Source: Noviherbaspirillum denitrificans
GTDB lineage: Bacteria > Pseudomonadota > Gammaproteobacteria > Burkholderiales > Burkholderiaceae_D
DNA: 36,583 nucleotides
Reading direction: 5' to 3'
Assembly (NCBI RefSeq): GCF_002211445.1
Contig: NZ_LSTO01000001.1
Span: 2,665,209 to 2,701,791, forward strand
Part shown: positions 19,913 through 35,239 of the stretch, piece after piece
How the letters are laid out: each line of letters opens with the position of its first letter
Numbering within the stretch: position 1 is the stretch's first letter
Position numbers and translations under genes: made by a program
The notes under the pieces: model-generated
Seen by the model: the letters and a program-made list of their open reading frames with translations, nothing else
What the model was told of the DNA's origin: nothing
The model's database searches: none

Positions 19913-20914
19913 TTATGCTGCGACAGTACTGACGGATGCTTTATCCTGCTTCTTCGGTACCTCGACCAAGGGCGAAAGCTCACCAACAATGCCTCTACGG
20001 AATGCCAGCACGCAGACAATAAAGATCAGTCCGGTGACGATGGTGACCGATTCTCCAATCGATCGGAACCACTCGATCCCGGTGACTAACGCCATCCAAT
20101 TGCCGAAATCGCCCAGCTTGTTTTCCAGCGCGATAATCACCACCGCGCCAACGATCGGACCGGCAAGCGTGCCGAGACCACCGACCAGCGTCATCAGTAC
20201 CACCAGGCCGGACATCGACCAGTGCACATCTGTAAGCGTTTCAAAACCCAGTATGACTGTTTTGAGCGCGCCGGCCAAACCGGCCAGCGCTCCTGAGAGT
20301 ACGAATGCGAGCAGCTTGTAGCGGTGGACGTCATAGCCCAGCGAGACTGCACGCGGCTCGTTCTCCTTGATTGCTTTCAGAACTTGACCAAAGGGAGAGT
20401 GAATGGTGCGGACGATTATCGCAAACGCGCCCAAGAAGATAGTGAGAACGACGTAATACAGCACCATGTCATTGCCCAAGCTGATTGCTCCAAGGAGATT
20501 GCCTCGTGGAATGCCCTGGAGGCCATCCTCACCGCCGGTAAAGGGCGCCTGCAGCGCAACGAAGTACAGCATCTGAGCCAAAGCCAGGGTGATCATTGTG
20601 AAGTAAATACCTTGGCGCCGAATGGCGAGTCCACCCATGACCAAACCGATCAGTGCCGCCACCGCCATCCCTGACAGGAGACCAAGCTCGAAAGGCAATC
20701 CCCATACTTTCAGAACGTGGCCGGCGACATAGCCCGCGGCGCCAAAGAATGCGGCGTGGCCGAAGGACAGCAAGCCCGTGAAGCCGATCAGCAGATTGAA
20801 AGCACATGCAAACAGCGCGAAGCACAGGACTTTCATCAGGAAAACCGGATAGATGAAGGCGGGTGCGACCAGCGCCGCGAGACAGACCACGCCATAGGAA
20901 AATTTCTTACTCAT
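19913..20914 (-). CDS. livM: Branched-chain-type ABC transporter permease, LivM family
   Basis: A 333-residue inner-membrane permease of the HAAT family. It has about ten hydrophobic helices and the LivM signatures CAFNLLIGFTGLLSFGHAAFFGAAGY, RRQGIYFTMITLALAQMLYF and AGPIVGAVVIIALE. It is the last gene of the livG-livF-livH-livM operon, 10 bp behind livH. With LivH it forms the membrane channel. The nearby binding protein and CoA-ester catabolic operon suggest the cargo is an aromatic, alicyclic or other organic acid rather than an amino acid. That is inference, as HAAT systems for such acids are known (for example CouPSTUVW-type). Confidence 0.92.
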   Translation of the reverse strand: MSKKFSYGVVCLAALVAPAFIYPVFLMKVLCFALFACAFNLLIGFTGLLSFGHAAFFGAAGYVAGHVLKVWGLPFELGLLSGMAVAALIGLVMGGLAIRRQGIYFTMITLALAQMLYFVALQAPFTGGEDGLQGIPRGNLLGAISLGNDMVLYYVVLTIFLGAFAIIVRTIHSPFGQVLKAIKENEPRAVSLGYDVHRYKLLAFVLSGALAGLAGALKTVILGFETLTDVHWSMSGLVVLMTLVGGLGTLAGPIVGAVVIIALENKLGDFGNWMALVTGIEWFRSIGESVTIVTGLIFIVCVLAFRRGIVGELSPLVEVPKKQDKASVSTVAA

Positions 20915-20924
20915 GCGGAACTCC

Positions 20925-21809
20925 TTATTTCTCTTTGCCGAACAGTCCCGCGGGACGCAGCATCAATACGATGGCCATGATGATGAATACCACCGTGGCC
21001 GACAATTCAGGGTAAAACACTCGCGCAAGGCCTTCGATCACGCCTAGGCCGAGACCGGTGATGATCGACCCCAAAATGGAACCCATCCCACCGATTACCA
21101 CCACGGCGAAGACGACAATAATCAGGTTGGATCCCATCAGCGGGGACACCTGGGTCACCGGCGCTGCCAGTACTCCGGCAAAGGCCGCGAGCGCGACACC
21201 GAAGCCATATGTCAACGTCACCATCAACGGCACATTGATCCCGAAAGCTTCGACCAGCTTCGGATTCTCGGTGCCGGCGCGCAGGTAGGCGCCGACCTTC
21301 GTCTTTTCGATCACATACCAGGTCGCCAGGCAGATCACCACCGAAGCGACGACGACCCAGGCGCGATACTTGGGCAGCATCATGAAGCCGAGGTTGAATG
21401 CGCCCGACAGCGCCTCCGGTACCGAATACGGCTGCCCGGACACGCCATAGAAGGAGCGGAACAAGCCTTCCAGCATCAGCGTGATGCCAAAGGTCAGCAG
21501 CAGGCCATAGAGGTGGTCCAGCTTGTACAGGTGCCTGAGCATGGTCTTTTCGATGAACACACCGAAGGCACCGGTCAGGACCGGGGCAGCCGCGAGCATT
21601 ATCCAATAGTTGGCATCGAAGTAAGCCAGGCCCATCCACGCCAGGAATGCGCCGACCATGTACAAGGCGCCATGGGCGAAGTTGATGACGTTGAGCAGGC
21701 CGAAGATGACGGCGAGCCCGAGCGAGAGCATCGCGTAGAAGGACCCGTTCACCAGTCCGAGCAGGAGTTGGCTCAGCATGGCCTGCAGGGGAATCCCGAA
21801 AATTTCCAT
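20925..21809 (-). CDS. livH: Branched-chain-type ABC transporter permease, LivH family
   Basis: A 294-residue permease with the LivH pattern: GLVNGSFYAMLSLGLAVIFG, NFAHGALYMVGAFLAW, and the C-terminal IVVFAVVVIGGMGSILGSII, which holds the cytoplasmic loop that contacts the ATPases. The frame is open to 21872, but the Met at 21809 (MEIFGIPLQ) fits the family and follows an AGGG ribosome-binding site. It lies between livF and livM in the same operon. Pairing of LivH and LivM with LivG and LivF is expected. Confidence 0.92.
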   Translation of the reverse strand: MEIFGIPLQAMLSQLLLGLVNGSFYAMLSLGLAVIFGLLNVINFAHGALYMVGAFLAWMGLAYFDANYWIMLAAAPVLTGAFGVFIEKTMLRHLYKLDHLYGLLLTFGITLMLEGLFRSFYGVSGQPYSVPEALSGAFNLGFMMLPKYRAWVVVASVVICLATWYVIEKTKVGAYLRAGTENPKLVEAFGINVPLMVTLTYGFGVALAAFAGVLAAPVTQVSPLMGSNLIIVVFAVVVIGGMGSILGSIITGLGLGVIEGLARVFYPELSATVVFIIMAIVLMLRPAGLFGKEK

Positions 21810-21843
21810 GGTAGTAAACCCTAATGAGAGATTGCCGGCAGCG

Positions 21844-22596
21844 TTACACGCCGAGCAGTTCGTTGAGCACATCCATCTTGCCGTGCAGCTGGTCCGCAGC
21901 GAAATGCTCCACGATCTGGCCGTGTTCCATTACATAGAAGCGGTCGGCCAGCGGCGCGGCGAAGCGGAAGTTCTGTTCGACCATCACGATGGTGTAGCCC
22001 TTGGCCTTGAGCGCCGTGATCATGCGTGCCAGGGCTTGAACGATCACGGGTGCCAGACCCTCGGAAATTTCATCGAGCAGCAGCAGGCGCGCGCCGGTAC
22101 GCAGGATGCGCGCGACGGCCAGCATCTGCTGTTCGCCGCCGGATAAACGCGTGCCCTGGCTGTGGCGCCGCTCGGCGAGATTCGGGAACATAGCGTAGAT
22201 TTCTTCGATCGACATGCCCTTTTCGGTCCTGGACACCAGGGGCGGCAGCATCAGGTTTTCTTCCGTCGAGAGCGAGGAAAAGATGCCGCGCTCCTCCGGG
22301 CAATAGCCCACGCCGAGGTGGGCTACCTGGAAGGTTGGCAGGCCGATGGATTCGACGCCGTTTACCTTGATCGACCCGGTACGGTGCCCCGTCAGGCCCA
22401 TGACGGCGCGCAGGGTGGAGGTGCGTCCTGCGCCGTTGCGGCCCAGCAGTGTCACGACCTCGCCGCGCTTAACCGTAAGGTTGACGTCATGCAGGATGTG
22501 CGATTCGCCGTACCACGCCTTGAGGTCTTTGATTTCAAGGGCATTGACCGTACTTCCATTGTGGCGGACGGTGAAATTTTCGGTGATGGCCTGCAT
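21844..22596 (-). CDS. livF: Branched-chain-type ABC transporter ATPase, LivF family (Walker A Lys to Arg)
   Basis: A 250-residue ATPase. The Walker A is GRNGAGRT (residues 52-59), in which the invariant Lys is replaced by Arg58; the codon is CGC and unambiguous. The rest is standard: signature LSGGEQQ (151-157), Walker B LLLLDE (171-176) and the LivF-typical VEQN switch. The partner LivG keeps its Lys, so the heterodimer may use one fully active site, or Arg may be tolerated in this subgroup. The start at 22596 overlaps the livG stop by one base (TGATG), showing translational coupling. Confidence 0.9.
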   Translation of the reverse strand: MQAITENFTVRHNGSTVNALEIKDLKAWYGESHILHDVNLTVKRGEVVTLLGRNGAGRTSTLRAVMGLTGHRTGSIKVNGVESIGLPTFQVAHLGVGYCPEERGIFSSLSTEENLMLPPLVSRTEKGMSIEEIYAMFPNLAERRHSQGTRLSGGEQQMLAVARILRTGARLLLLDEISEGLAPVIVQALARMITALKAKGYTIVMVEQNFRFAAPLADRFYVMEHGQIVEHFAADQLHGKMDVLNELLGV

Positions 22597-23369
22597 CAGT
22601 GCGCTCCTTCCAAAACGCCGGTGGTGGTGCCCATGTAGGCTTCCATGACCTGGGCATTTCCTGACACTTCGGCATAGCTGCCTTCGGCCAGCACCGCGCC
22701 GCGCTGTAAGACGGTGATGCGGTCGCAAATGCCGGATACGACCGCCATGTTGTGCTCGACCATGAGGATGGTGCGGCCGGCGGAAACCTTCTTGATCAGT
22801 TCAGTGACACGGTGCACGTCTTCATGTCCCATGCCTTGTGTCGGCTCATCCAGCAGCATCAGCTCGGGCTCCATCGCCAGCGTAGTGGCGATTTCCAGCG
22901 CACGCTTGCGGCCGTAGGGCAGGTCTACCGTCAGTGTGTCGGCAAAGCGTTCAAGGTCTACCTCGGAGAGCAGCTGCATCGCACGTGAGTTCAGTTGCGC
23001 GAGCGTTGTCCCGCTTTTCCAGAAGTGGAAGGTTGTTCCCAGCGATCTTTGCAGCCCGACTCGCACGTTTTCCAGCACCGTCAGGTGCGGGAAAACAGCA
23101 GAGATCTGGAATGACCGGATGATGCCCCGGCGGGCGATTTCGGCGGTGGGTACGTTCGTGATGTCTTCGGCGTTGAACAGGATCTGTCCTTCTGTCGCGG
23201 TCAGGAACCGCGTCAGCAAGTTGAAGCAGGTTGTCTTGCCTGCGCCGTTCGGTCCGATCAGCGCGTGGATGTCCCCGCGCCGTATACGCAGGTTCACGCC
23301 GCTGACTGCCGTGAACCCCTTGAATTCCTTGGTGAGATTCCTCGTCTCCAAGATGATGTCTTCTGCCAT
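22596..23369 (-). CDS. livG: Branched-chain-type ABC transporter ATPase, LivG family
   Basis: A 257-residue ATPase with Walker A GPNGAGKT (residues 39-46), the LivG-specific insert after IIRSFQISAVFPHLTVLENVRVG, the DLPYGRKRALEIATTLA signature region in place of LSGGQ, and Walker B LMLLDEPTQGM. Two ATGs lie in tandem (23372 and 23369). The second is chosen because AGGAG is 5 bases from it but only 2 from the first. The frame's upstream extension to 23654 is rejected. It heads the livGFHM operon, about 42 nt downstream of the predicted start of a sigma-54 promoter. Confidence 0.92.
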   Translation of the reverse strand: MAEDIILETRNLTKEFKGFTAVSGVNLRIRRGDIHALIGPNGAGKTTCFNLLTRFLTATEGQILFNAEDITNVPTAEIARRGIIRSFQISAVFPHLTVLENVRVGLQRSLGTTFHFWKSGTTLAQLNSRAMQLLSEVDLERFADTLTVDLPYGRKRALEIATTLAMEPELMLLDEPTQGMGHEDVHRVTELIKKVSAGRTILMVEHNMAVVSGICDRITVLQRGAVLAEGSYAEVSGNAQVMEAYMGTTTGVLEGAH

Positions 23370-23421
23370 CATTTCTCCTGTTGTCTCTACATGTTGCTTG
23401 CTGCAAATCCGCACCTCGGTC

Positions 23422-23438
23422 TGCAACAAGCATGCCAA
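23422..23438 (-). promoter_or_regulatory. Sigma-54 promoter of the livGFHM operon
   Basis: Read on the minus strand, TTGGCATGCTTGTTGCA matches the -24/-12 consensus TGGCACG-N4-TTGCA at 11 of 12 bases with the obligatory GG-N10-GC spacing. Predicted start near 23411, about 42 nt before livG. Confidence 0.75.
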
Positions 23439-23535
23439 GGTCCTGCAGAAGCGGCTGCTTCCTGTCCTGCGGGCGGCGTGCGGCGTTTGACGGGGTAGGC
23501 ACCGGTAATACGGCCTGGACACGAACCGCGCGAAG

Positions 23536-23552
23536 TGTCGACGCGGTGGACA
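23536..23552. promoter_or_regulatory. Candidate enhancer site A for the sigma-54 activator
   Basis: TGTC-N9-GACA lies within a 22-bp segment (23533-23554) that is identical at 14 of 22 positions to the segment starting at 23565, 32 bp away. Centre at about -120 from the plus promoter and -133 from the minus promoter, ordinary distances for an enhancer. Confidence 0.5.
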
Positions 23553-23562
23553 TCGGTTCGGA

Positions 23563-23591
23563 CAAAATGTGTATGCGGCGAACACACTTTG
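23563..23591. promoter_or_regulatory. Candidate enhancer site B, long inverted repeat
   Basis: CAAAATGTGT and ACACACTTTG pair at nine of ten positions around a 9-bp centre. The inner TGT-N11-ACA (23568-23584) has the same geometry as site A, with centres 32 bp apart (about three turns). It lies about -88 from the plus-strand sigma-54 start. Confidence 0.55.
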
Positions 23592-23636
23592 GTCGATTCG
23601 ACGCCGGAAAAGTACCATTTGGCGCGCCTCCGGCAG

Positions 23637-23653
23637 TTGGAACGGTAATTGCA
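23637..23653 (+). promoter_or_regulatory. Sigma-54 promoter of the binding-protein gene
   Basis: TTGGAACGGTAATTGCA has GG-N10-GC spacing and matches 11 of the 12 consensus bases. Predicted start near 23664, giving a 127-nt leader before the gene at 23791. Confidence 0.75.
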
Positions 23654-23790
23654 CTCTGTTGCTTCAGGCCACCGCCTCGATCCAGGCGACGCCACAACTT
23701 CCCGGGAATCGCAGGAGACGCGCGGAATAACGCAAACTGGCTGGGCCAGACCGCGCAGTACACACTCAACTACAACACGGAGAGCACTTC

Positions 23791-25011
23791 ATGAAGCAGG
23801 TCACACGTATCGCAAGGACCGCATTGGCTACTGCAGCGGCCGCACTTGCAGCGGGAAACGCCGCGGCACAGATTACCGACGATGTCGTGAAGATCGGCGT
23901 GATCGTCGACAAGACCGGCGTCTACTCCGCCAACGGCGGACCGGGGGGAGTGAGGGCAGTCGAAATGGCGGTCAAGGACTTTGGCGGCATGGTCAACGGA
24001 AAGAAGATCGAGATCGTGTCGGCTGATTACCAGAACAAGGTCGACATCGCCCTGTCCAAGGCACGCGAGTGGTTTGACGTCGACAAGGTGGACATGATCA
24101 TCGAGTCGACCGATTCGGCGGCATCGATCGCCATGCAGAAGCTGGCCGCGGAGAAGAAGCGCGTCATGATCTTCGCCGGCTCCGCCACCACCGCGCTCAC
24201 GAACAAGGAGTGCTCGCCCTATGGCGTGCACTACGTGTATGACACTTATGCGCTCGCGACTGGCACCGGCCGCGCGGTCATGCAGGACGGCGGCGACAGC
24301 TGGTACTTCATCACCGCCGATTACGCCTTCGGCTCCTCGCTGGAGAGGGATACGACGCGGGTGATCCAGGATATGAAGGGCAAGGTGCTGGGCACCATCA
24401 AGCATCCGCTGTCGGCCTCCGATTTCTCTTCCTTCCTGCTGCAGGCGCAGGCATCCAAGGCCAAGGTGATCGGCCTGGCCAACGCCGGCAAGGATACCCA
24501 GAATTCCGTGCGCCAGGCCGCCGAGTTCGGCATCGTCAGCGGCGGACAGAAGCTGGCCACGCTGCTGGTGTTCGATACCGACATCAAGGGCCTCGGTTTG
24601 AAGAATGCGCAGGGCCTGCTGTTCACCACCGGCTTCTACTGGGACTACAACGACGAAACCCGGAAGTGGTCGCGCCGCTTCTACGACGTCCACAAGGCCA
24701 TGCCTACCATGATCCAGGCCGGCATGTATTCCGCCACCATGCATTACCTGAAGTCCATCCAGGCGACCGGCACCGACAACGCCGACGCGGTGATGAAGAA
24801 GATGAAAGAGAGCGAGATCAACGACTTCTTCGCCAAGGGCGGACGCATCCGGGAAGACGGGCGCATGATCCACGACATGTACCTTGCGGAAGCCAAGAAG
24901 CCTTCGGAGTCGAAGGAAGAGTGGGATATCATGAAAATCAAGAGTGTCATCCCGCGCGACCAGGCTTTCCAGCCCCTGTCGGAAAGCACTTGTCCGCTGG
25001 TCAAGAAGTAA
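23791..25011 (+). CDS. Branched-chain-type ABC transporter substrate-binding protein (LivK-like)
   Basis: A 406-residue periplasmic receptor with a Sec signal peptide (about residues 1-26, cleavage after AAA). The type I binding-protein fold follows: VKIGVIVDKTGVYSANGGPGGVRAVEMAVKDFGG at the mature N-terminus, then IIESTDSAASIAMQ and WYFITADYAFGSSLERDTTR. These features match HAAT receptors, many of which bind aromatic or short organic acids rather than amino acids. The start has the ribosome-binding site GGAGAG. It is transcribed divergently from livGFHM, with paired sigma-54 promoters between. It most likely delivers the substrate of the downstream catabolic operon. Confidence 0.92.
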   Translation: MKQVTRIARTALATAAAALAAGNAAAQITDDVVKIGVIVDKTGVYSANGGPGGVRAVEMAVKDFGGMVNGKKIEIVSADYQNKVDIALSKAREWFDVDKVDMIIESTDSAASIAMQKLAAEKKRVMIFAGSATTALTNKECSPYGVHYVYDTYALATGTGRAVMQDGGDSWYFITADYAFGSSLERDTTRVIQDMKGKVLGTIKHPLSASDFSSFLLQAQASKAKVIGLANAGKDTQNSVRQAAEFGIVSGGQKLATLLVFDTDIKGLGLKNAQGLLFTTGFYWDYNDETRKWSRRFYDVHKAMPTMIQAGMYSATMHYLKSIQATGTDNADAVMKKMKESEINDFFAKGGRIREDGRMIHDMYLAEAKKPSESKEEWDIMKIKSVIPRDQAFQPLSESTCPLVKK

Positions 25012-25018
25012 GTCAGGC

Positions 25019-25043
25019 GACGGCGGCACAGGACGCCGCCGTC
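25019..25043 (+). terminator. Hairpin after the binding-protein gene
   Basis: GACGGCGGC and GCCGCCGTC form a perfect 9-bp stem with a 7-nt loop, 8 bp past the stop. No U-run follows. It may attenuate expression of the next genes or protect the 3' end of the abundant receptor message rather than terminate fully. Confidence 0.45.
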
Positions 25044-25073
25044 AACTTGCCGATTGGGCGCCAAGGCGTGAAG

Positions 25074-25253
25074 ATGAAACAGACATCGCCGTTACCGAGC
25101 AAGGAGCAGGTCAGGCACTGGCTCGCCCGCCGCCGCCTCGCGGCCGGGCCTCTCCCCGAACCGGAGCAGATACGCCGGGAGCTCGGATGGGGAGCGCTGG
25201 CGAAACAGGGTTCAACGGGGGAATTGCATGGAAATGGTCGAAACAATGGCTAA
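25074..25253 (+). CDS. Small hypothetical protein (59 aa)
   Basis: A 59-codon frame starting at ATG 25074 with a weak AAGG ribosome-binding site. The product is basic, with LPSKEQVRHWLARRRLAAG and LPEPEQIRRELGWG. The pattern of a short helix, a Pro-rich linker and RRELGW looks like a real small protein rather than noise, but the family is not recognised. It lies 62 bp after the receptor gene, beyond a hairpin. Its last 26 bases overlap the next gene in another frame, which suggests translational coupling. No Cys, signal peptide or membrane segment. Confidence 0.42.
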   Translation: MKQTSPLPSKEQVRHWLARRRLAAGPLPEPEQIRRELGWGALAKQGSTGELHGNGRNNG

Positions 25254-25965
25254 CGTCCGCGCGGCCGCTCAAGCGAAAGCCGGCCGGCCCGGCGTGCTGT
25301 TCGTGCTGAACGACGTCCCGAAAGGGATGGATGACGAATTCACGCGCTGGTACCACCAGGAGCACCTGACCGAGCGTCTTGCGCTCCCCGGCTTCCGGCG
25401 CGCGCGCCGTTACCGGTCGGTGGATGGTCAGCCCAATTACATGGTCGTCTATGATTGCGACACCTTGGAGACGCTGGCGTCGCCACCCTACCTAGACCGG
25501 CTTGCGCACCCTTCGCCGTGGACGCAGAAAATCATGCCGCATTTCCTCAACATGGAACGCTCCGCCTGCAGCGAGACCTGGGCAGCAGGAGTGGGCATGG
25601 GTGGCGCGGCCATGGTCACGCATTGCAAGCCGATTCACGGCAGGGAAGAAGACGCCCGGCGTTTTATTCGTGAGGAGCTCGGCCCGCGGCTGATGCAGAA
25701 TTCCAGCATCGTGCGCATTGCCCTATGGGAAACCGACGCCGGCGTGACAGGCAAGCCGAGCGCCGAGCGCAAGATGCGCCCGGGCAAGGACACCATCGCG
25801 GACTGGGTGCTGTTCATCGAATGCACCGATGTCGGCCAGGTCGCGTTGGCGCTGCACACCCATGTCCTGGCGGGCGAGGGCGCGCGCACAGGACTGTTGC
25901 TGGGTTCCTGGCTGCGCTACCAGCTGATCTATGAACGCCATGCAGCGGTCGCCGGGCCGGCGTAA
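25228..25965 (+). CDS. EthD-like dimeric alpha-beta barrel protein
   Basis: A 245-residue protein with GVLFVLNDVPKGMDDEFTRWYHQEHLTERLALPGFRRARRY near the N-terminus. The W-[YH]-xxxH-xxER-xx-PGF pattern is typical of EthD/DUF4286-type ferredoxin-like barrels. A second half with VTHCKPI and DWVLFIECTD may be a repeated barrel domain, giving an intramolecular dimer. The start at 25228 has GGGGGAA upstream. It probably shares the sigma-54 transcript of the receptor gene and converges on the activator gene. Such barrels often act on or bind small hydrophobic acids; the function here is unknown. Confidence 0.7.
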   Translation: MEMVETMANVRAAAQAKAGRPGVLFVLNDVPKGMDDEFTRWYHQEHLTERLALPGFRRARRYRSVDGQPNYMVVYDCDTLETLASPPYLDRLAHPSPWTQKIMPHFLNMERSACSETWAAGVGMGGAAMVTHCKPIHGREEDARRFIREELGPRLMQNSSIVRIALWETDAGVTGKPSAERKMRPGKDTIADWVLFIECTDVGQVALALHTHVLAGEGARTGLLLGSWLRYQLIYERHAAVAGPA

Positions 25966-25977
25966 CCGAGGCCCGGC
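25951..25977. terminator. Bidirectional hairpin between convergent genes
   Basis: GCCGGGCC and GGCCCGGC pair perfectly over 8 bp around an 11-nt loop that contains the EthD-like gene's stop. The activator gene ends 10 bp further. It could end transcription from both sides, although it lacks a U-tract. Confidence 0.45.
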
Positions 25978-25986
25978 CTGAACGGC

Positions 25987-27654
25987 TCAGGCGGGCTCGG
26001 GCTCTTCTCCCGACAGCTTCTTGTAGAGGTAGGCGCGCGAAATGCCGAGTTCTTCAGCGACCTTCTTCTTGTTCCCCTTGTGCCTGACCATGGCCTCCCG
26101 GATCATGGTTTTTTCCATTTCCTCGATCGCGTCCTGGATCCTGCCCGACGCAGGCGCAGGTGCTTTCGGCGCGAACTCTGCCGGCGGCGCCGCCGGGCGT
26201 TCCGGCACTTCATGCGACATCAGGCGGAAATTGTCGAGCGTAATCTCCGGTCCATCGCAGAAGATGGCCGCCTTTTCGACTTCATGCAGTAACTGGCGCA
26301 CGTTGCCCGGCCACGGCAGCTCCTTGAGGTAGGCATAGACGCGCGCGTCCACTCCCTTGACCGAGGTGCGGTGCCGTTCCGCGAATGCGACGAGGAAGCT
26401 CTGCACCAGTTCGGGAATGTCTTCCGGGCGTTCGCGCAGGCTCGGCATGCGGATGGTGACGCCGCTGATACGGTAGTACAGGTCCAGGCGAAACTCGGCG
26501 TTGGCAATCATTTCCTGGAAATTGCGGTTGGTCGCGCTGATGAGACGGAAATCCGAGTGGCGCGGCCGGTCGCCGCCTACGCGCTCGAAGATGCCATCCT
26601 GCAGCACGCGCAGCAGCTTGACCTGGACCTCGGCGGGCATGTCGCCGACTTCGTCGAAAAACAGCGAGCTTTGGTCGGCGAGTTCGAACTTGCCCTTGCG
26701 GCCCTTTTTCTCGGCGCCGGTAAAGGCGCCGGCTTCATAGCCGAACAGTTCGCTCTCCACCAGCGAGGCGGGCAGGGCGGCGGCGTTGACGAAGACCATC
26801 GGGTTTTCGCTGCGCCGGCTCAATGAATGGATCGCATGTGCGGCCAGTTCCTTGCCGGTGCCGCTCTCACCGATGATCAGCACCGGCACCGACAGCGGCG
26901 CGACCTTGGAGATATCCGCCTTGAGCTGGCGTATCGCATCGCTGTTGCCGACCATCTTGTCGAGCCCGAAGGTGCGGCGCTTCAGTCCGGTCAGCTCGCT
27001 TCGGTAGAACTCGACCTCTGACCGCAGCTTGACCACTTCCTTGCTGAGTTCTAGGACGGTTTCCGGGCCCTTGAACATCACGCGTCCCAGTGCCCCGACA
27101 GTCTTTCCGTTGTCGGTCAGGGGAATCCGCGCGACGACGCGCGTGACACCGCCCATTTCCTGCAGCTTGCCGATCTCGGCTTTGCCGGTGCGGACCACTT
27201 CATGCAGGTTGGTGTTCTCGATGACGTCGGTGACCTTCTTCCCGACCGCTTCGCCGTGTTCGATGCCGAAGAAGCGCTCGTGGACAGGCGGGATGTAGCG
27301 GACGCGCGCCTGGTCGTCCACCACAACGACCGATTCGTAGGGGTTGTTCAGGAAGTAGTCGAAGACAAGATGCGCAAAATCGACGTTGGTGACGAAATCG
27401 AACAGGGTGGACTTGCTGGTGGCGTCCTGGATGAAGAACAGGGTCGCGTCCTCGCTGGAACGGAAGCTGGCGATGAGCTTGGGGTCGCCGTCGATCGCGA
27501 GCATGCCGCGGCGGCGGTCCTCATGGTGATAACGCTCGAGGACGCGCTGCCGGACGGCCTCATCGCGCGCAAAACCGGTGGCGCAGGTTACTTCGCCCCT
27601 GGGGTCCAGGACCAGTACACCGAAGGCGAAGGGATCGCTGTTCTTTGTCTGCAT
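25987..27654 (-). CDS. Sigma-54-dependent Fis-family transcriptional activator (enhancer-binding protein)
   Basis: A 555-residue bacterial enhancer-binding protein. Residues 1-100 form an unrecognised sensor segment, followed by a PAS-like domain at about 100-200 (YESVVVVDDQARVRYI...). A coiled linker spans 200-225. The AAA+ domain has Walker A GESGTGKE (262-269), the sigma-54-contacting GAFTGA loop (309-314) and Walker B LFFDEVGD (331-338), then WPGNVRQL (448-455). A C-terminal Fis-type helix-turn-helix lies at about 530-547. All residues needed for sigma-54 activation are present. The start at 27654 is chosen over an open extension to 27945. It sits between two sets of genes that carry sigma-54 promoters and is their likely activator. 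The PAS domain suggests a small ligand. Confidence 0.93.
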   Translation of the reverse strand: MQTKNSDPFAFGVLVLDPRGEVTCATGFARDEAVRQRVLERYHHEDRRRGMLAIDGDPKLIASFRSSEDATLFFIQDATSKSTLFDFVTNVDFAHLVFDYFLNNPYESVVVVDDQARVRYIPPVHERFFGIEHGEAVGKKVTDVIENTNLHEVVRTGKAEIGKLQEMGGVTRVVARIPLTDNGKTVGALGRVMFKGPETVLELSKEVVKLRSEVEFYRSELTGLKRRTFGLDKMVGNSDAIRQLKADISKVAPLSVPVLIIGESGTGKELAAHAIHSLSRRSENPMVFVNAAALPASLVESELFGYEAGAFTGAEKKGRKGKFELADQSSLFFDEVGDMPAEVQVKLLRVLQDGIFERVGGDRPRHSDFRLISATNRNFQEMIANAEFRLDLYYRISGVTIRMPSLRERPEDIPELVQSFLVAFAERHRTSVKGVDARVYAYLKELPWPGNVRQLLHEVEKAAIFCDGPEITLDNFRLMSHEVPERPAAPPAEFAPKAPAPASGRIQDAIEEMEKTMIREAMVRHKGNKKKVAEELGISRAYLYKKLSGEEPEPA

Positions 27655-27665
27655 GACGGTACGCC

Positions 27666-27682
27666 TGTCTTTGCTAAATACA
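27666..27682. promoter_or_regulatory. Candidate enhancer site C (TGT-N11-ACA)
   Basis: CTGT-N11-ACAG symmetry (TGT 27666-27668, ACA 27680-27682), centred about 201 bp before the catabolic-operon start and only 12 bp upstream of the activator's ATG. It could serve both activation of the operon and autorepression. Confidence 0.45.
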
Positions 27683-27699
27683 GATCGGGTTTCGATGAT

Positions 27700-27716
27700 T
27701 GTCTCCCAAAAAGACA
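27700..27716. promoter_or_regulatory. Candidate enhancer site D (TGT-N11-ACA)
   Basis: TGTC-N9-GACA, the same arms and spacing as site A, followed by CTTT as in site B. Its centre is 34 bp from site C and about -167 from the sigma-54 start of the catabolic operon. Confidence 0.5.
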
Positions 27717-27847
27717 CTTTACGCTGTTTGCCGGGGTGTAAGGGCACAGGATTTCCTTGGTGAGAACCATCCCGAGCCCGCGTAACCCCGCGTTTTTGCA
27801 GTGAAAACAGGCAGTTTCCGTGCCACGCCCGGGGAGGCTGGCGTTCG

Positions 27848-27864
27848 GTGGCATGGACGTTGCA
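27848..27864 (+). promoter_or_regulatory. Sigma-54 promoter of the catabolic operon
   Basis: GTGGCATGGACGTTGCA contains TGGCATG-N4-TTGCA, 11 of 12 consensus bases with GG-N10-GC spacing. Predicted start near 27875. This lies downstream of ATG 27870, so it favours the ATG at 27900 as the first codon of the operon. Confidence 0.78.
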
Positions 27865-27899
27865 AAGCAATGGCATACACACCTGACTACGACAAATCC

Positions 27900-29132
27900 A
27901 TGTTGCCTTCAGAACAACTTTCTCCCGCCCCTGATGCCGCGCCACTCGACCTGCTTGCGGGCATCCGTGTCCTTGATCTCACGACGTCCATCGCCGGGCC
28001 CTATGCATCCCTCCTGCTGGCGGACTTCGGCGCCGAGGTGCTGAAGATCGAACGCCCGGGACGGGGCGACGATGCCCGCGCCTGGGGGCCACCCTTCCTC
28101 GACGGCGAATCGCTGTGGTTCCTCAGCGTCAACCGGAACAAGCACAGCCTCACACTTGATTACGCACAGCCGGCCGGGCTCGAAGCGCTTCACGCGCTGG
28201 TGAAGGCGGCCGACGTCATCCTCATCAACCAGGTCGCCCGCAGCCAAAGGAAACTCGGTATTGACTATGCGCGGCTCAAGGCCGTCAATCCACGCCTGGT
28301 GCATGTGTCGATCACCGGTTTTGGGCTCGTCGGAACGAAAAGTGACCAGCCTTGCTATGATCTGATTGCCGAGGGCTATAGCGGCGTGATGGACCTGACC
28401 GGCGAGTCGCCGGAGCGCGACCCGCAGAAGGTGGGCACGCCGGCCGCGGACTTGCTGTCGGGAGCCGATGCAGCGATGGCGGCAATGGCCGCCCTCATCG
28501 ACCGGAACCGTACCGGCCAGGGGCACGAGATCGATATCGCAATGGTCGAGAGCATGACACGATTCATGACGCCGAGGATCATTCCCTATCTTGGGTCGGG
28601 TGAGCTGCCGCGCCGCAGCGGCGGGACGGACAGCGTGATCGCCATCTACCAGACCTTCCATACCGCGGACCACCCGATCACGCTCGGCCTCGGCAACGAT
28701 GCGATCTGGAAGCGCTTCTGCGAAGCCATCGGACGCATCGACATGGCCAATGATGCGCGCTTCGCCAACAACGCCGGCCGCCGTGCCTGTCGGTCCGAGA
28801 TCGTACGGGAAGTACAAGCGATCCTCCTCAAGAAACCGCGTGCGCACTGGCTCGATCTCTTCGCCTGCGCTCGCATTCCCTCCGGTCCGATCAACCGCCT
28901 CGACCAGGTCGTCACCGATCCCACTCTTGCCGAACGCGGCTTGTTTTATGCGACGCGACGCAACGGCGCCGCGATACCGCAGGTTGGCCTCGGTATCCGC
29001 TTCAACGGCAAATTCAATACGTACCGCAAGGACCCGCCCCGCCTGGGCGAAGACACCCGCCGCACCTTTTCATCATGGCTGGGCTGGAGTGACGAAGCAA
29101 TTCAGAAGCTGGACGACGCGGGGCTGCTTTAG
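27900..29132 (+). CDS. Class III (CaiB/BaiF) CoA-transferase
   Basis: A 410-residue family III CoA-transferase with LAGIRVLDLTTSIAGPYAS, LLADFGAEVLKIERPGRGDDAR and, further on, CYDLIAEGYSGVMDLTGE. Asp154 in that segment aligns with the acyl-anhydride-forming Asp of formyl-CoA transferase. The frame is open to 27801 with another ATG at 27870, but the predicted sigma-54 start (about 27875) supports 27900; no strong ribosome-binding site is seen there. It heads the catabolic operon. It could load CoA on the incoming acid from succinyl-CoA, or recycle CoA from a pathway intermediate. The acyl-CoA ligase two genes on would be an alternative activating route. Confidence 0.88.
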   Translation: MLPSEQLSPAPDAAPLDLLAGIRVLDLTTSIAGPYASLLLADFGAEVLKIERPGRGDDARAWGPPFLDGESLWFLSVNRNKHSLTLDYAQPAGLEALHALVKAADVILINQVARSQRKLGIDYARLKAVNPRLVHVSITGFGLVGTKSDQPCYDLIAEGYSGVMDLTGESPERDPQKVGTPAADLLSGADAAMAAMAALIDRNRTGQGHEIDIAMVESMTRFMTPRIIPYLGSGELPRRSGGTDSVIAIYQTFHTADHPITLGLGNDAIWKRFCEAIGRIDMANDARFANNAGRRACRSEIVREVQAILLKKPRAHWLDLFACARIPSGPINRLDQVVTDPTLAERGLFYATRRNGAAIPQVGLGIRFNGKFNTYRKDPPRLGEDTRRTFSSWLGWSDEAIQKLDDAGLL

Positions 29133-29178
29133 AACGGAAACGCGCCGCGACCCATATATACCCTAGGAGAACGACACC

Positions 29179-29964
29179 ATGACACGCCAGTTCGAAACCA
29201 TCATCTATACCGAAGACGGCCCCGTCGGAACCATCACGCTGAACCGCCCCGACAACGGCAACATGTTCAACGAAACGATGTGCCATGAAATCCGTGACTG
29301 CATCAACGACATCCGCCGCGAGACCCGGACGCGCGTCATCGTCATTACCGGTGCAGGCGACCGCTTCTTCTGCATCGGCGGCGAAAAGACCGGCATGCCG
29401 GACACTCATCTCTACCCCGGCGTGCTGCCGGTGCTCGACATGTACGAAGCGATTGACCGCCTGCAAAAGCCGGTGATTGCTGCCGTGAACGGCTTTGCCG
29501 TCGGCGGCGGTAATGTGCTCCAGGTGATGTGCGACATCACCATTGCCAAGGAAAGCGCGGTTTTCCGCCAGGTCGGCCCGATGATGGGAAGTTTCGACGC
29601 CGGTTTCGGCACCTGGTACCTCGAAGACCTGGTCGGCAAGAAGAAGGCCAAGGAAATCTGGTTCCGCAACCCCAAGATCAGCGCAAGGGAAGCGCTGGAG
29701 ATGGGGCTGATCAACAAGGTCGTCCCCGACGATCAGCTTGCCGCCGCGACACGCGAAATGGCGCTGGAGATCGCTGACCGCGGCGCCTTCGCGCTGGCTT
29801 CGATCAAGGCGGCCTTCGGTGCCCGCCACGGCGGCGTGGGCGGCTTGTCGCGCGTAACGCATGACCTGCTGTTGCGCCTGAACCTGGACACCGAGGAGGC
29901 GAAGGAATTGTCCAAGTCCTTCAGCGAGAAGCGCGCTCCGGACGCATCCAAGTTCGGCCACTGA
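29179..29964 (+). CDS. BadI/MenB-type crotonase (beta-keto/ring-opening hydrolase or Dieckmann-type enzyme)
   Basis: A 261-residue crotonase-fold protein. Oxyanion segments are FFCIGGEK (63-70) and VGGGNVL (108-114). The block QVGPMMGSFDAGFG (131-144), followed by VGKKKAKEIWF (152-162), is the hallmark of the MenB/BadI branch, not of ordinary enoyl-CoA hydratases. MenB closes a ring by Claisen-type condensation, and BadI hydrolytically opens 2-ketocyclohexanecarboxyl-CoA to pimeloyl-CoA. No other men genes are here, while ligase, dehydrogenase, hydratase and SDR genes follow, so a BadI-like C-C cleaving role is favoured. The start has the ribosome-binding site AGGAG. Confidence 0.82.
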   Translation: MTRQFETIIYTEDGPVGTITLNRPDNGNMFNETMCHEIRDCINDIRRETRTRVIVITGAGDRFFCIGGEKTGMPDTHLYPGVLPVLDMYEAIDRLQKPVIAAVNGFAVGGGNVLQVMCDITIAKESAVFRQVGPMMGSFDAGFGTWYLEDLVGKKKAKEIWFRNPKISAREALEMGLINKVVPDDQLAAATREMALEIADRGAFALASIKAAFGARHGGVGGLSRVTHDLLLRLNLDTEEAKELSKSFSEKRAPDASKFGH

Positions 29965-29978
29965 GCGGGAGCCGGCGA

Positions 29979-31655
29979 ATGAACACCATCCTGACCCTCC
30001 ATGATCCGCAACAGGCCCGTTCCTACTACGAACGGGGCGTCTGGCGCGATCAAACGCTGTACACGCTGCTGCAGTCGCATGCGCAGGCGCGCCCGGAAGC
30101 ATGGGCCCTGCGGGACAGCGCCCGCCGCCTGACCTGGCGCCAGCTGCTGGAATGGACGGACGCGGTAGCCGCCGATCTTGCCGCGGCCGGCCTGCGCAAG
30201 GGTTCGCGGGTCGCGGTATGGCTGCCCAGCAGGGTGGAGTCGGTCGTTGTCTTCCTCGCTTGCTCGCGCAACGGTTACATCTGCAACCCGTCCTTGCACC
30301 AGAACTACACCGTGGCCGAGATCGTTCGCCTGATCGAGCGCATCGACTGCGAAGCCTTTTTCGGCCAGAAGGGCTATGGTGCCGATGGCAGCCGCGATGG
30401 CGTCGCCGGCGAGATCGGCGCGGTCAAGACCCTGCGGCGCACCTATTGGCTCGAACCGGGCCGAGACGGCGCCGGGGAATTTCCGGCTGCCGGGGCAGCG
30501 TATCCGCAAGCCGCTGCCGACGCGAATCCGGACAAGGTGGTCTACCTGGCCTTCACGTCCGGCACGACCGGACTGCCGAAGGCAGTCATGCACAGCGACA
30601 ACACCCTGCTGGCCAACGGGCGGGCGATGGTGAAGGACTGGGGGCATGATGCCAGCACTGTCCTGTTCAGCCTCAGCCCGGTGAGTCACCACATCGCCAC
30701 CGTCTCCATCGAACAAATGCTGGTCGCCGGACTCGAACTGGTAGTGAACGACCTTCCGGCCGGGATGAAACCGATCGACTGGATTCTCGAGACCGGTGCG
30801 ACCTACGTCATGGGCGTGCCCACGCACGCGATGGACATCCTGGCCGAGGCCAAACGCCGCGGGCTCGACAAGCTCGGCAAGGTCAAGGTGTTCTACATGG
30901 CCGGCGCCGCCATTCCGCGCGAAATCGCGCAGGGCTTCCTCAACCGGGGCATCCTGCCGCAGAACGTCTATGGCATGACGGAGAACGGGTCGCACCAGTA
31001 CACCTTGCCCACCGACAGCGCCGACACCATTGTCGGTACCTGCGGCCGCGCCTGCGACGCCTATGAGATCAAGCTCTGGAACCAGGAAAACCCTGACATC
31101 GAGGCGAAGCCCGGCGAGATCGGCGAGATCGCCGGACGCGGCGCCTGCCTCATGCTCGGCTACTTCAACAACCAGTCGGCGACGGAAAAGTCGTTCAATG
31201 TGCACGGCTGGTTCCTCAGCGGCGACCTCGGTATGGTCGACAGCAACGGCTGCCTGGTCATCATGGGCCGCAAGAAGGACCTGATCATCCGTGGCGGCCA
31301 CAATATCCACCCGTCGACCATTGAAGACCTTGCGATCACGCATCCGGTCGTACTCAAGGCGGCTGCCTTCCCGGTGGCGGATGACCGCCTCGGGGAGAAG
31401 GTTTGCCTGGCGGTGACTTGCACCGAAGGGGCGACGCCGCCCACCGGCGATGAACTGCTTGAACACCTGCACGAGGTGGGGCTGTCGAAGTTCGACATGC
31501 CGGAGTTCTACATTGCCCTGGATGGATTCCCGCAAACCGCCAGCGGAAAAATCCTCAAGCGCGAACTGGTCGAGTGGGTCAAGCAGGGCCGGCTCAATCC
31601 CGCGCCGGTACGTTGGACGGGCGGCGGCAACAATCACAACGACAAGGGAAACTGA
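29979..31655 (+). CDS. Acyl-CoA synthetase (AMP-forming), AliA-like
   Basis: A 558-residue ANL-superfamily ligase that makes an acyl-CoA from acid, ATP and CoA. The P-loop is AFTSGTTGLPKAVMHS (191-206), the adenine/Mg motif is VYGMTENG (330-337), and the hinge Asp is followed by GRKKDLIIRGGHNIHPSTIE (430-449). The catalytic Lys524 is in ASGKILKREL. Full length with no missing motif. The start at 29979 has GGGAG upstream, and the gene follows the BadI-like gene by 14 bp. The C-terminal tail is Gly/Asn-rich. The natural acid is unknown; cyclohexanecarboxylate or a related cyclic acid would fit the neighbours. Confidence 0.9.
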   Translation: MNTILTLHDPQQARSYYERGVWRDQTLYTLLQSHAQARPEAWALRDSARRLTWRQLLEWTDAVAADLAAAGLRKGSRVAVWLPSRVESVVVFLACSRNGYICNPSLHQNYTVAEIVRLIERIDCEAFFGQKGYGADGSRDGVAGEIGAVKTLRRTYWLEPGRDGAGEFPAAGAAYPQAAADANPDKVVYLAFTSGTTGLPKAVMHSDNTLLANGRAMVKDWGHDASTVLFSLSPVSHHIATVSIEQMLVAGLELVVNDLPAGMKPIDWILETGATYVMGVPTHAMDILAEAKRRGLDKLGKVKVFYMAGAAIPREIAQGFLNRGILPQNVYGMTENGSHQYTLPTDSADTIVGTCGRACDAYEIKLWNQENPDIEAKPGEIGEIAGRGACLMLGYFNNQSATEKSFNVHGWFLSGDLGMVDSNGCLVIMGRKKDLIIRGGHNIHPSTIEDLAITHPVVLKAAAFPVADDRLGEKVCLAVTCTEGATPPTGDELLEHLHEVGLSKFDMPEFYIALDGFPQTASGKILKRELVEWVKQGRLNPAPVRWTGGGNNHNDKGN

Positions 31656-31657
31656 CC

Positions 31658-32425
31658 ATGCCCATCACATTAAGCTACCGCGACGAGTTCGCCATTCTTA
31701 CCATTGACAGGCAAGAGGCGCTCAACGCGCTGAGCTTCTCGCTGATCGGCGACATCAATCGCTGCTTCGATGAAGTCGAAGAGTCTTCCGCGCGTGCACT
31801 GCTGATTACGGGTGCCGGACCGAAGGCGTTCTGCGCCGGGGCCGACATCGCGGAGCTGACCAACCGTGACATCGAGGCGCAGAAGCGCGGCGCCGAGTTC
31901 GGCCAACGGGTATTTGCCCGCCTCGACACGCTGCCTATGCCCTCCGTCGCCATCCTGAACGGTTATGCCTTCGGCGGCGGGCTGGAACTGGCACTGGCCT
32001 GTACGTTCCGCCTTGCCATGGCGAATGCCAAGGTCGGACTGCCGGAAATCAAGCTGGGCCTCATTCCGGGCTACGGCGGCACGCAACGCCTGCCCCGGGT
32101 TGTCGGCGAGGCACGCGCGCTGGAAATGATCATGACCGGCCGCACCGTCGCGGCTGATGAAGCCGCCCGTATCGGCCTCGTCAACCGGATTGTCGAAGGC
32201 GATCCGGTTGAAGCCGGCATCGCGTTTGCCCGCGAATTCAGCGGCCACGGCATGGTGGCCCTGCGCCTAGCGCGCGGCGCGGTGCAGCGCGCGTTGCAAA
32301 CCTCCCTGACCGAAGGCCTCAAGGTCGAGGCCGATCTTTCCACGCTTGCCTACCAGACGAAGGATGCCAACGAAGGCATGGTCGCCTTCCTGGAAAAACG
32401 CAAGCCCCAGTTCAAGGATTGCTGA
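31658..32425 (+). CDS. Enoyl-CoA hydratase (classical, two-glutamate)
   Basis: A 255-residue crotonase with both catalytic acids of true hydratases: Glu110 in FGGGLELAL and Glu130 in VGLPEIKLGLIPGYGGTQRLPR. The first oxyanion segment is AFCAGADIAEL (57-67). The start at 31658 follows the ligase stop by 2 bp with AGGGAA as ribosome-binding site, and the frame's upstream extension is inside the ligase gene. In the pathway it would hydrate the alpha,beta-unsaturated CoA ester made by the acyl-CoA dehydrogenase, as BadK does for cyclohexene-carboxyl-CoA. The hydratase family call is secure; the substrate is inferred. Confidence 0.92.
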   Translation: MPITLSYRDEFAILTIDRQEALNALSFSLIGDINRCFDEVEESSARALLITGAGPKAFCAGADIAELTNRDIEAQKRGAEFGQRVFARLDTLPMPSVAILNGYAFGGGLELALACTFRLAMANAKVGLPEIKLGLIPGYGGTQRLPRVVGEARALEMIMTGRTVAADEAARIGLVNRIVEGDPVEAGIAFAREFSGHGMVALRLARGAVQRALQTSLTEGLKVEADLSTLAYQTKDANEGMVAFLEKRKPQFKDC

Positions 32426-32427
32426 CC

Positions 32428-33174
32428 ATGGCAGAAAAAGGAACCATCATCGTCACCGGCGCCAGCCGCGGCATCGGTGCCAGCATCGCAATCGCGCTGG
32501 CAGAACTCGGCTACACCGTCGCCTGTTTGTCGCGGCGAGGGGAGCTTCCGGCCGTGCCGGATGCGAGCAAGGAGGCGGTGGCGCGCTGCAAGGGATTCAG
32601 CTGCGACGTCACCAGCGGCGACAGCCTACGCGATGCATTTGCCGCAGCGGCAGCGCTGGGCGGGCCGGTTGCGGGCCTGGTCAACAATGCAGGCGTACAT
32701 CTGGAAGGGCCAAGCACCACATTCTCCCGCGACGATTATGAAACGGTATTCGCCACCAACACGACCTCGGTCTTCATGAGCTGCCAGCACATCTATCCGC
32801 ACCTGGCAGCAGCCGGCGGCGGCCTGATCGTCAACATCGGATCCTTCTTCGACAAGCTGGGCGTCAAGCGCAACCTGGCCTACTGCGCATCAAAGGCGGC
32901 CGTGGGCGCGATCACCCGCTGCCTCGCTGTGGAGTGGGCTGGGAAGGGCATCCGCGTGATCGACGTCGCGCCGGGATACATCGAGACCGACCTGAACAAG
33001 GAGGCGATGTCGGCCGGGCCGTTGCGTGAATACCTGGAAAAACGCATCCCCGGCCGCAAGCCGGGAACCTCCGCGGATGTCGCGAAACTGGTCAAGGCGC
33101 TGTTCCTGGCCGACGCGCCTTTCCTGTCCGGGGAAACCATTTACATCGACGGCGCGCAAGGCGTCGCGCACTAG
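32428..33174 (+). CDS. Short-chain dehydrogenase/reductase (SDR)
   Basis: A 248-residue classical SDR. The cofactor loop is TGASRGIG (10-17), NNAG lies at 86-89, and the catalytic set is Asn111, Ser139, Tyr152 and Lys156 (YCASK). PGYIETDL and the C-terminal GETIYIDGAQG complete the family pattern. Residues after beta-2 (CLSRRGE) contain Arg pairs that often favour NADP(H). The start at 32428 is 2 bp after the hydratase stop. In the operon it would oxidise a hydroxyacyl-CoA to the keto form, the step BadH performs before BadI. Specificity is inferred from order only. Confidence 0.9.
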   Translation: MAEKGTIIVTGASRGIGASIAIALAELGYTVACLSRRGELPAVPDASKEAVARCKGFSCDVTSGDSLRDAFAAAAALGGPVAGLVNNAGVHLEGPSTTFSRDDYETVFATNTTSVFMSCQHIYPHLAAAGGGLIVNIGSFFDKLGVKRNLAYCASKAAVGAITRCLAVEWAGKGIRVIDVAPGYIETDLNKEAMSAGPLREYLEKRIPGRKPGTSADVAKLVKALFLADAPFLSGETIYIDGAQGVAH

Positions 33175-33183
33175 GAGACGGAC

Positions 33184-34350
33184 GTGAACATTTTTGAACG
33201 GCTCGATGCGAGCGTGGAACTGTCGGACGACGAAAGCCAGTTGCTGGACAGCGTGCGCGCGCTGGCGCGCACCGAACTGATGACGCGCGCCGAGCATTAC
33301 GACAAGACGGGAGAGTTTCCCTGGGAAAACGTCAAGGCAATCAACAACCTCGGTCTGAACGCGATGTTCATTCCGGAAGAGTATGGGGGCGCCCGGCTGT
33401 CCTACACCGCCTATCTGGAATGCGTGCGCGAGATCGCCAAGGCGTGTGCGTCCACTGGCATCATCTGGGCGACCAATTTCCATGCGATCAAGCCGCTGAT
33501 CGACTTTGGATCGGAAGAGCAGAAACAGCGCCTGCTGCCGCGCATCGCCGAAGGCGGACTGGCCGCGCTGGCGATCACGGAACCGGATGCGGGCTCCGAT
33601 GCGACAGGCATGCGCACGCGCTTCACGCCCGACGGCGACGACATCATCATCGACGGCGGCAAGACCTTCATCACCAACGGCGACGTGGCCGATGTCTACG
33701 TGCTGTTCGGCAAATGGAGCGAAATCGAGGATCCGAAGAAGGCCATCTCGGTGGTGATCCTGGAAAAGGGCACGCCCGGGCTGTCGGTGGTGCGCACCGA
33801 ACAGAAGATGGGGCACCGCGCGTCGAGCACCGCGACGATTTCCTTTGACGGCTGCCGGGTGCCGCGCGCCAACCTGCTGCGCAATCCGGGAGACGGCCTG
33901 AACATCCTGTTCTCGTCGCTCAACAAGTCCCGGCCCAGTGTTGCCGCGCATGCTCTCGGCATTGCGCGCGCGGCGTTCGAGGATGGCGTCGCGTACATCA
34001 ACGAGCGCAAGCAGTCGGGCCGCAAGATCATCGAATTCCAGGGCATCCAGTTCATGCTGGCCGACATGGCCACCGACCTCGCCATGTGCGAATCCTGGCT
34101 GTGGCGGATTGCGAAGCTGGTAGACAGCGGCGGCACTGACTTCGGCATCGAGGCGTCGATGCTGAAGATGCGCGCCTCCGACGTCGCCATGCGCATCACC
34201 ACCGACGTGGTTCAGCTGTTCGGCGGCTATGGCTATTGCCAGGATTTCCGGGCCGAGCGCCTGATGCGGGACGCCAAGATTACGCAGATCTGGGAAGGTA
34301 CCAACCAGGTGCACCGCCAGCTGATCGGCCGCAGTTTCCTGACCAAATGA
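33184..34350 (+). CDS. Acyl-CoA dehydrogenase (AliB-like)
   Basis: A 388-residue flavin-dependent acyl-CoA dehydrogenase. It has the N-terminal helical domain, the middle-domain motif LAALAITEPDAGSDATGMRT, and the C-terminal QLFGGYGYCQDFRAERLMRDAKI. The catalytic base is probably Glu371 in IWEGTNQ, the position used by short- and medium-chain enzymes. The start is GTG at 33184 with AGGAGACGG upstream. It lies 9 bp after the SDR gene. It would introduce the double bond for the hydratase. No electron-transfer flavoprotein genes are present, so ETF comes from elsewhere. Confidence 0.92.
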   Translation: MNIFERLDASVELSDDESQLLDSVRALARTELMTRAEHYDKTGEFPWENVKAINNLGLNAMFIPEEYGGARLSYTAYLECVREIAKACASTGIIWATNFHAIKPLIDFGSEEQKQRLLPRIAEGGLAALAITEPDAGSDATGMRTRFTPDGDDIIIDGGKTFITNGDVADVYVLFGKWSEIEDPKKAISVVILEKGTPGLSVVRTEQKMGHRASSTATISFDGCRVPRANLLRNPGDGLNILFSSLNKSRPSVAAHALGIARAAFEDGVAYINERKQSGRKIIEFQGIQFMLADMATDLAMCESWLWRIAKLVDSGGTDFGIEASMLKMRASDVAMRITTDVVQLFGGYGYCQDFRAERLMRDAKITQIWEGTNQVHRQLIGRSFLTK

Positions 34351-34360
34351 GAGGCATCCA

Positions 34361-35236: not shown

Positions 35237-35239
35237 CAT

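Follow-up and report, generated by a model that had tools for sequence, protein, structure and literature searches.

A candidate shared enhancer between predicted divergent sigma-54 promoters of a HAAT-family transporter in Noviherbaspirillum denitrificans

The intergenic region at 23370-23790 of the window (the whole stretch of 36,583 nucleotides of Noviherbaspirillum denitrificans DNA that was analysed) carries two opposed -24/-12 elements with a pair of palindromes between them. Based on sequence comparison, this region is, with a probability of about 0.85, the uptake branch of a local regulon governed by sigma-54 and made up of one activator, two enhancer pairs and three promoters. The elements themselves, their conservation, their specificity on the scale of the genome and their linkage to an activator gene were observed, and are described below (Table 1).

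In the mechanism that we infer from them, which includes activator binding, sigma-54 dependence, an inducer and autorepression, the activator encoded at 25987-27654 would bind as dimers to both palindromes at 23536-23586, the inducing signal probably being the acid taken up or a CoA thioester derived from it. The ring formed by the induced activator would make contact with the sigma-54 form of RNA polymerase at the promoters on either side, and the output of the shared pair would be transcription of livGFHM leftward and of the receptor gene rightward. On the pair at 27666-27716, the same activator would drive the catabolic operon from 27849; it may also repress its own gene, given that 11 bp separate the activator start codon from this second pair upstream of it. 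The preliminary description of this DNA had covered the two divergent promoters and their shared enhancer; the analysis adds the activator encoded nearby, a further enhancer pair (27666-27716) and a third promoter (27849).

Table 1. Predicted features of the gene cluster and their positions in the window
Feature	Position	Strand	Remarks
livM-like permease	19913-20914	minus	best model UrtC, score below its cut-off
livH-like permease	20925-21809	minus	PF02653
livF-like ATPase	21844-22596	minus	start inferred at the ATG overlapping the livG stop
livG-like ATPase, HAAT family	22596-23369	minus	PF00005 and PF12399; alternative ATG at 23372 possible
-24/-12 element, livG-livF-livH-livM operon	23422-23437	minus	TGGCATGCTTGTTGCA; 11/12 bases; GG-N10-GC
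Enhancer pair, site 1	23536-23552	none	TGTCGACGCGGTGGACA; TGT-N11-ACA; putative activator site
Enhancer pair, site 2	23570-23586	none	TGTATGCGGCGAACACA; TGT-N11-ACA; putative activator site
-24/-12 element, receptor (SBP) gene	23638-23653	plus	TGGAACGGTAATTGCA; 11/12 bases; GG-N10-GC
HAAT-family substrate-binding protein (receptor)	23791-25011	plus	PF13458 (Peripla_BP_6); solved relative 3i09
Gene without a family name, downstream of the receptor gene	25228-25965	plus	PF14114 (DUF4286), below cut-off only
sigma-54 activator	25987-27654	minus	PAS-like N-terminal region; AAA+ with GAFTGA; Fis-type HTH
Second enhancer pair, site 1	27666-27682	none	TGTCTTTGCTAAATACA; TGT-N11-ACA; putative
Second enhancer pair, site 2	27700-27716	none	TGTCTCCCAAAAAGACA; TGT-N11-ACA; putative
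-24/-12 element, catabolic operon	27849-27864	plus	TGGCATGGACGTTGCA; 11/12 bases
Catabolic operon	27900-35893	plus	enzymes given in the text

Promoter elements and paired palindromes

The search for -24/-12 elements was performed with the consensus TGGCACG-N4-TTGCW, in which 12 bases are specified. Three sites with at most one mismatch were found in the window, all of them with one mismatch and none an exact match. When the window was shuffled by dinucleotides (n = 30), a mean of 0.5 such sites was obtained and the largest number was 2; when the 421-bp region 23370-23790 was shuffled, 0 of 3000 sequences had one such site on each strand. Sites with up to three mismatches were not enriched in the window (60 found, 74.3 expected). 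The two elements in 23370-23790 are each oriented toward the expected gene, and the starts predicted from the GC of the -12 box lie near 23411 on the livG side and near 23664 on the receptor side; for the catabolic-operon promoter the predicted start is near 27875. For the two divergent elements, the coordinates, the 11/12 matches, the GG-N10-GC spacing, the orientation and the predicted starts in the preliminary description all proved right. The receptor-side box is the weaker one, with an A for C at -24. A sigma-70 promoter scan of 23350-23800 gave 0 candidates (0.1 expected), and the genome encodes rpoN (TIGR02395, 469.6 bits; cut-off, 277.35). The pattern TGGCAYG-N4-TTGCW was matched exactly at 13 places in the genome, and its reversed control at 1. 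One exact -24/-12 match some 8 kb beyond the window was set aside, being internal to an open frame of 806 aa and having no palindrome within 3 kb upstream.

The preliminary description had also placed a long inverted repeat and a related site between the promoters, giving no coordinates for them; these were taken as TGTGTATGCGGCGAACACA and TGTCGACGCGGTGGACA, respectively, and both were found there. The former (23568-23586) is an alternative reading of site 2 as TGTGT-N9-ACACA. Among the other inverted repeats that the repeat finder returned in 23370-23790, the longest was 23522-23538/23584-23600 (76%). The start-to-start spacing is 34 bp in both pairs, and the second pair lies upstream of the third -24/-12 site and adjoins the activator gene.

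Single TGT-N11-ACA words are frequent and the 34-bp pair is rare; likewise, TGTGT-N9-ACACA with up to two mismatches was not enriched across the window (7 found, 8.5 expected). The case for the palindrome sites rests on pairing and conservation, not on the frequency of the single word. In the organism's own genome (5,798,956 bases), TGT-N11-ACA-N17-TGT-N11-ACA occurred at 2 places, 4 kb apart and both beside the promoters described here, and the reversed-pattern control at 0. Across 15 genomes of the genus the spaced pair was found at 11 places (reversed control, 0), of which 9 were the two intergenic regions in five genomes (G000, G001, G005, G007 and G010). When 195 genomes of the family were searched, 23 places were found versus 7 for the reversed control; 11 of these belonged to this cluster, in seven genomes, and the 12 places elsewhere are near background. 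Among the seven, G129 was assigned to the cluster through its identity with L057 in letters and coordinates.

Two places in the genus stand apart from the two intergenic regions, one in G002 and one in G007. The extra G007 pair (L134 9763-9926) was found by the pattern alone, 18 kb further along from the cluster. About 100 bp from it, a 2-mismatch -24/-12 site faces a 3-hydroxyacyl-CoA dehydrogenase gene that is 38% identical to that of the window, and the pair is a possible further target of the regulon in G007.

The activator and the genes under its predicted control

The activator gene is located between the receptor gene and the catabolic operon, 2.2 kb from 23370-23790. Its product matched PF00158 (sigma-54 interaction AAA+, 214 bits), PF02954 (Fis-type HTH, 46 bits) and the AAA lid, and the GAFTGA loop was present in the alignment; judged by these domains, it is a predicted bacterial enhancer-binding protein. 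The N-terminal 200 residues appear to contain a PAS-like domain, based on a weak Pfam PAS match and on the order of strands and helices in a structure model (pLDDT 74.4, pTM 0.45). An identity with NifA was rejected, given a score of 292.6 bits against an equivalog cut-off of 528.85 and sites of the form TGT-N11-ACA; NifA sites are TGT-N10-ACA. PrdR was rejected as well, the best NCBIfam model (NF041552) scoring 370.6 against a cut-off of 795. Fourteen activator-like matches were scored in the genome, and the product of 25987-27654 is the best candidate for the protein at the palindromes. The activator was found in several Pseudomonadota genera, apparently without prior characterisation: no description of it together with the paired motif was found among the openly licensed literature matches listed. 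Noviherbaspirillum sp. Root189 carries two paralogous copies of activator, receptor and operon (L056 and L067), which differ in layout.

For the transporter, the HAAT/Liv-type assignment holds at the level of the family, with a Peripla_BP_6 receptor, two permeases of the BCAA type and two ATPases. None of the NCBIfam equivalog cut-offs for LivG, LivH, LivM, LivF or Urt proteins was reached; the livG product scored 188.9 against a cut-off of 362 for LivG and 218.8 against 304.1 for UrtD. The split Liv-type transporter tied to acid catabolism that had been proposed is retained in this broader sense, without a Liv-named equivalog. The best model for a longer livF frame (21844-22728) was UrtE, again below its cut-off. 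The gene at 25228-25965, for which 'EthD' served as a working label, has a counterpart adjoining the receptor gene at five (L031-L035) of the ten loci retrieved.

The catabolic operon encodes a family III CoA-transferase, a BadI/MenB-like crotonase, an acyl-CoA ligase, an enoyl-CoA hydratase, an SDR, an acyl-CoA dehydrogenase and two 3-hydroxyacyl-CoA dehydrogenase parts. Its start codon at 27900 was preferred over 27870 because the five genomes aligned all keep it and the transcript is predicted to start ahead of it, near 27875. Among the matches listed, no NCBIfam cut-off for the operon enzymes was reached, and the substrate may reasonably be guessed to be a cyclic carboxylic acid. Naming the operon for cyclohexanecarboxylate (ali-bad) degradation was rejected on model cut-offs (BadI, 217.7 against 467.6; AliA, 225.3 against 792.3; cyclohexanecarbonyl-CoA dehydrogenase, 303.3 against 650). 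The crotonase (29179-29964) scored similarly with BadI and MenB, below both cut-offs, and is possibly a ring-opening enzyme; the operon is kept in several genera. Downstream of the operon and just past the window (L148 622-1227), a further family III CoA-transferase is encoded whose match to the first is confined to residues 21-223 of the latter. In the relatives L034 and L036 this match is longer, and the second CoA-transferase may be shortened in this genome.

Conservation, spacing and other explanations

Relatives of the activator were retrieved with their surroundings at ten loci, 7 of which keep the receptor gene nearby. The counterparts of 23370-23790 (A-type regions, n = 8, window included) and those on the operon side (B-type regions, n = 12, window included and L038 represented twice) were compared, the region of L037 being counted in both. 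Among the A-type regions, a receptor-side -24/-12 site with up to two mismatches was present in 7/8 and a palindrome pair at exactly 34 bp in 6/8, and all five with a divergent livG had a livG-side site with at most one mismatch. The operon-side site of the B-type regions had one mismatch in 9/12 and two in 1/12, and was lacking in 2/12. Their palindromes were spaced at exactly 34 bp in 5/12 and at 33, 42 or 43 bp in 3/12; of the others, one had two sites 114 bp apart and three had a single site.

When five genomes were aligned, both A promoters and both palindromes were present in 5/5, and four relatives keep both -24/-12 elements though the surrounding DNA has diverged. Together with rpoN and the nearby activator gene, this supports the proposal of two divergent sigma-54 promoters served by one shared enhancer. 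The invariant columns of the A alignment amounted to 14/16 in the livG-side box, 10/16 in the receptor-side box, 8/17 in each palindrome and 35/355 in the remainder; for the B alignment, they were 14/16 in the box, 10/17 and 15/17 in the palindromes at 27666 and 27700, and 12/195 in the remainder. Every element was enriched over the remainder (one-sided Fisher p from 1e-6 to 3e-17), an invariance that is partly by construction, given that six fixed letters define the palindrome search and that the boxes were likewise picked by consensus.

The two palindromes between the two promoters would allow one for each, and it is conceivable, if unlikely, that both promoters are sigma-54 dependent but use separate sites, one near and one far, with no enhancer in common. 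Single palindromes upstream in L091, L092 and L095 would agree with this arrangement, only the receptor-side promoter having been scored there. However, both palindromes are still found at the 34-bp spacing in L057 and L080, whose available DNA contains no livG, and the catabolic promoter has an identically spaced pair; the pair therefore looks like one unit, and we favour the shared enhancer.

Spacing was analysed on each side. On the receptor side, the distances from palindrome to box cluster near 49, 69, 79, 90, 101 and 113 bp, with L080 lying between at 56. The best period was 10.8 bp (15 lineages, R = 0.74), which was reached by 12 of 5000 random sets; the lineages were a manual selection, and periods between 10 and 11.5 bp were scanned in the random sets as in the data. 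This periodicity suggests that the activator must occupy one face of the helix on the receptor side. Helical phasing was found neither on the livG side (n = 6; 4988/5000 random sets) nor on the CoA-transferase side (n = 14; 3298/5000 random sets).

Named genomes were scanned with the receptor alignment, giving 68 loci, of which 67 were usable (L123, a partial match, was dropped); the nearest belong to Noviherbaspirillum, Glaciimonas and Herbaspirillum. A receptor-side signature, defined as a -24/-12 site with up to two mismatches and a palindrome 40-220 bp upstream of it, was present in 14 of the 18 activator-bearing loci versus 7 of the 49 without an activator (p = 2e-6), a comparison in which contig ends may hide activators among the 49 and the loci are not independent. 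In block-shuffled upstream regions the signature appeared 3 times in 13,400. The activator-bearing loci lacking it are L061, L067, L078 and L079. Of these, L061 and L067 keep a site with at most one mismatch before the catabolic operon, and L061 also before livG; L078 has such a site before a CoA-transferase gene that is only 31% like that of the window. A livG-side box with at most one mismatch was found in 6/6 divergent loci, compared with 4/1800 block shuffles. For the operon side, 18 loci were scored (the window, G010 and 16 of the 18 named activator-bearing loci, L079 and L098 being left out), and 15 of them, including L078, had a box with at most one mismatch, compared with 11/5400 block shuffles.

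These data also bear on whether the palindromes belong to another regulator, for example one of the LysR type, with the sigma-54 boxes served by a distant activator. The general LysR motif T-N11-A, as given in PMC6449761, is formally contained in TGT-N11-ACA, and the fourteen activator-like matches in the genome would provide candidates for a distant activator. This explanation is nevertheless improbable: from locus to locus, the palindrome sites go together with the adjacent sigma-54 activator; in both regions they precede -24/-12 boxes; and no LysR-type protein was found among the frames of 19913-35893 that were compared with Pfam or NCBIfam. Spaced pairs of sites are, moreover, expected for the sigma-54 activator class. 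A chance origin of the -24/-12 matches in DNA rich in GC is the least credible explanation, for although loosely matching sites are no commoner than chance and one exact genomic match is intragenic and without an upstream palindrome, the close matches exceed expectation in the window and the genome, shuffling did not reproduce the opposed pair and conservation is strong.

Known systems and the history of the layout

A similar arrangement is found in the zraP-zraSR and hyc-hyp regions of E. coli. Published descriptions show that calling the arrangement unusual, as had been done, overstated the case, since divergent operons with shared sigma-54 enhancers have been reported from Desulfovibrio and sigma-54-dependent acid uptake for paaL. 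The orp operons of Desulfovibrio vulgaris and their activator DVU2106 (PMC3897727) resemble the arrangement proposed here in being a divergent sigma-54 operon pair with one palindrome-binding activator, although the genes, the motif and the activator differ. DVU2106 represses its own gene via an overlapping site, a precedent for the autorepression proposed here. The IHF sites of orp mattered in an E. coli reporter assay but not in a native ihf mutant (PMC3897727), and no IHF-like site with at most one mismatch was found in either intergenic region here. The type III secretion system of D. vulgaris with DVUA0100 (PMC4641369) likewise has a divergent pair of sigma-54 operons, whose common upstream region contains one predicted activator motif, but its function is another and its activator gene lies inside one of the operons.

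The phenylacetate permease gene paaL of Pseudomonas putida CA-3 (PMC3224230) shares with the system predicted here the uptake of a catabolic acid under sigma-54, and its rpoN dependence is apparently confined to the transport operon; it differs in being a single permease, and the part of the report available describes no palindromic activator site found at paaL. The ali-bad genes of Aromatoleum sp. CIB (PMC9795900) have a comparable set of enzymes (CoA ligase, acyl-CoA dehydrogenase, hydratase, dehydrogenase and BadI-type crotonase) but are under repression by the MarR-type BadR at operators overlapping -35 boxes. In the available part of a study of betaproteobacterial aromatic-acid regulation (PMC6449761), sigma54 is mentioned once and livG and cyclohexane are absent. 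No description of this regulon was found among the titles and abstract openings listed from the openly licensed literature.

The receptor tree was built from 67 proteins (65 named loci, the window and G010; L123 was dropped, as were L120 and L121 for low score), with a midpoint root for drawing only. The six divergent loci (the window, G010, L056, L058, L059 and L061) fall in one 15-row group with 95/82 support, partly unresolved inside. In these six, livGFHM, as far as the contig extends, is turned round and follows a second -24/-12 site, which has 0 or 1 mismatch and is directed away from the same palindromes, of which five loci have a pair and L061 has one. In 10 loci livG lies downstream of the receptor gene in the same direction; 9 of them are elsewhere in the 49-row half that also contains the divergent group, and L106 is outside it. 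These nine, some of which show only the beginning of receptor-livGFHM before the contig ends, come from Cupriavidus, Azospirillum, Variovorax, Roseovarius and an Ectothiorhodospiraceae bin. The receptor-side signature, scored before the receptor gene only, was present in six (L069, L091, L094, L095, L099 and L119) and absent from L082, L086 and L103. Where livG lies upstream of the receptor gene in the same direction (12 loci), the signature was found in 0/12, and 39 named loci have no close livG in the available DNA.

These layouts fit a single-promoter ancestor that was split later, the internal order of the group being partly unresolved. We suggest only tentatively, and at somewhat less than even odds, that the second promoter was born on an existing enhancer within the Oxalobacteraceae-rich group. 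The relatives with divergent or codirectional layouts provide material on how such layouts arise, and the region itself offers a compact system for testing how two opposed sigma-54 promoters can be driven from a single enhancer. To a sigma-54 activator, the analysis assigns a likely motif (paired TGT-N11-ACA) and likely targets (uptake and catabolism). If the proposed origin of the second promoter is true, this would be a natural case of an enhancer gaining a second, divergent target, in an activator regulon not described before.
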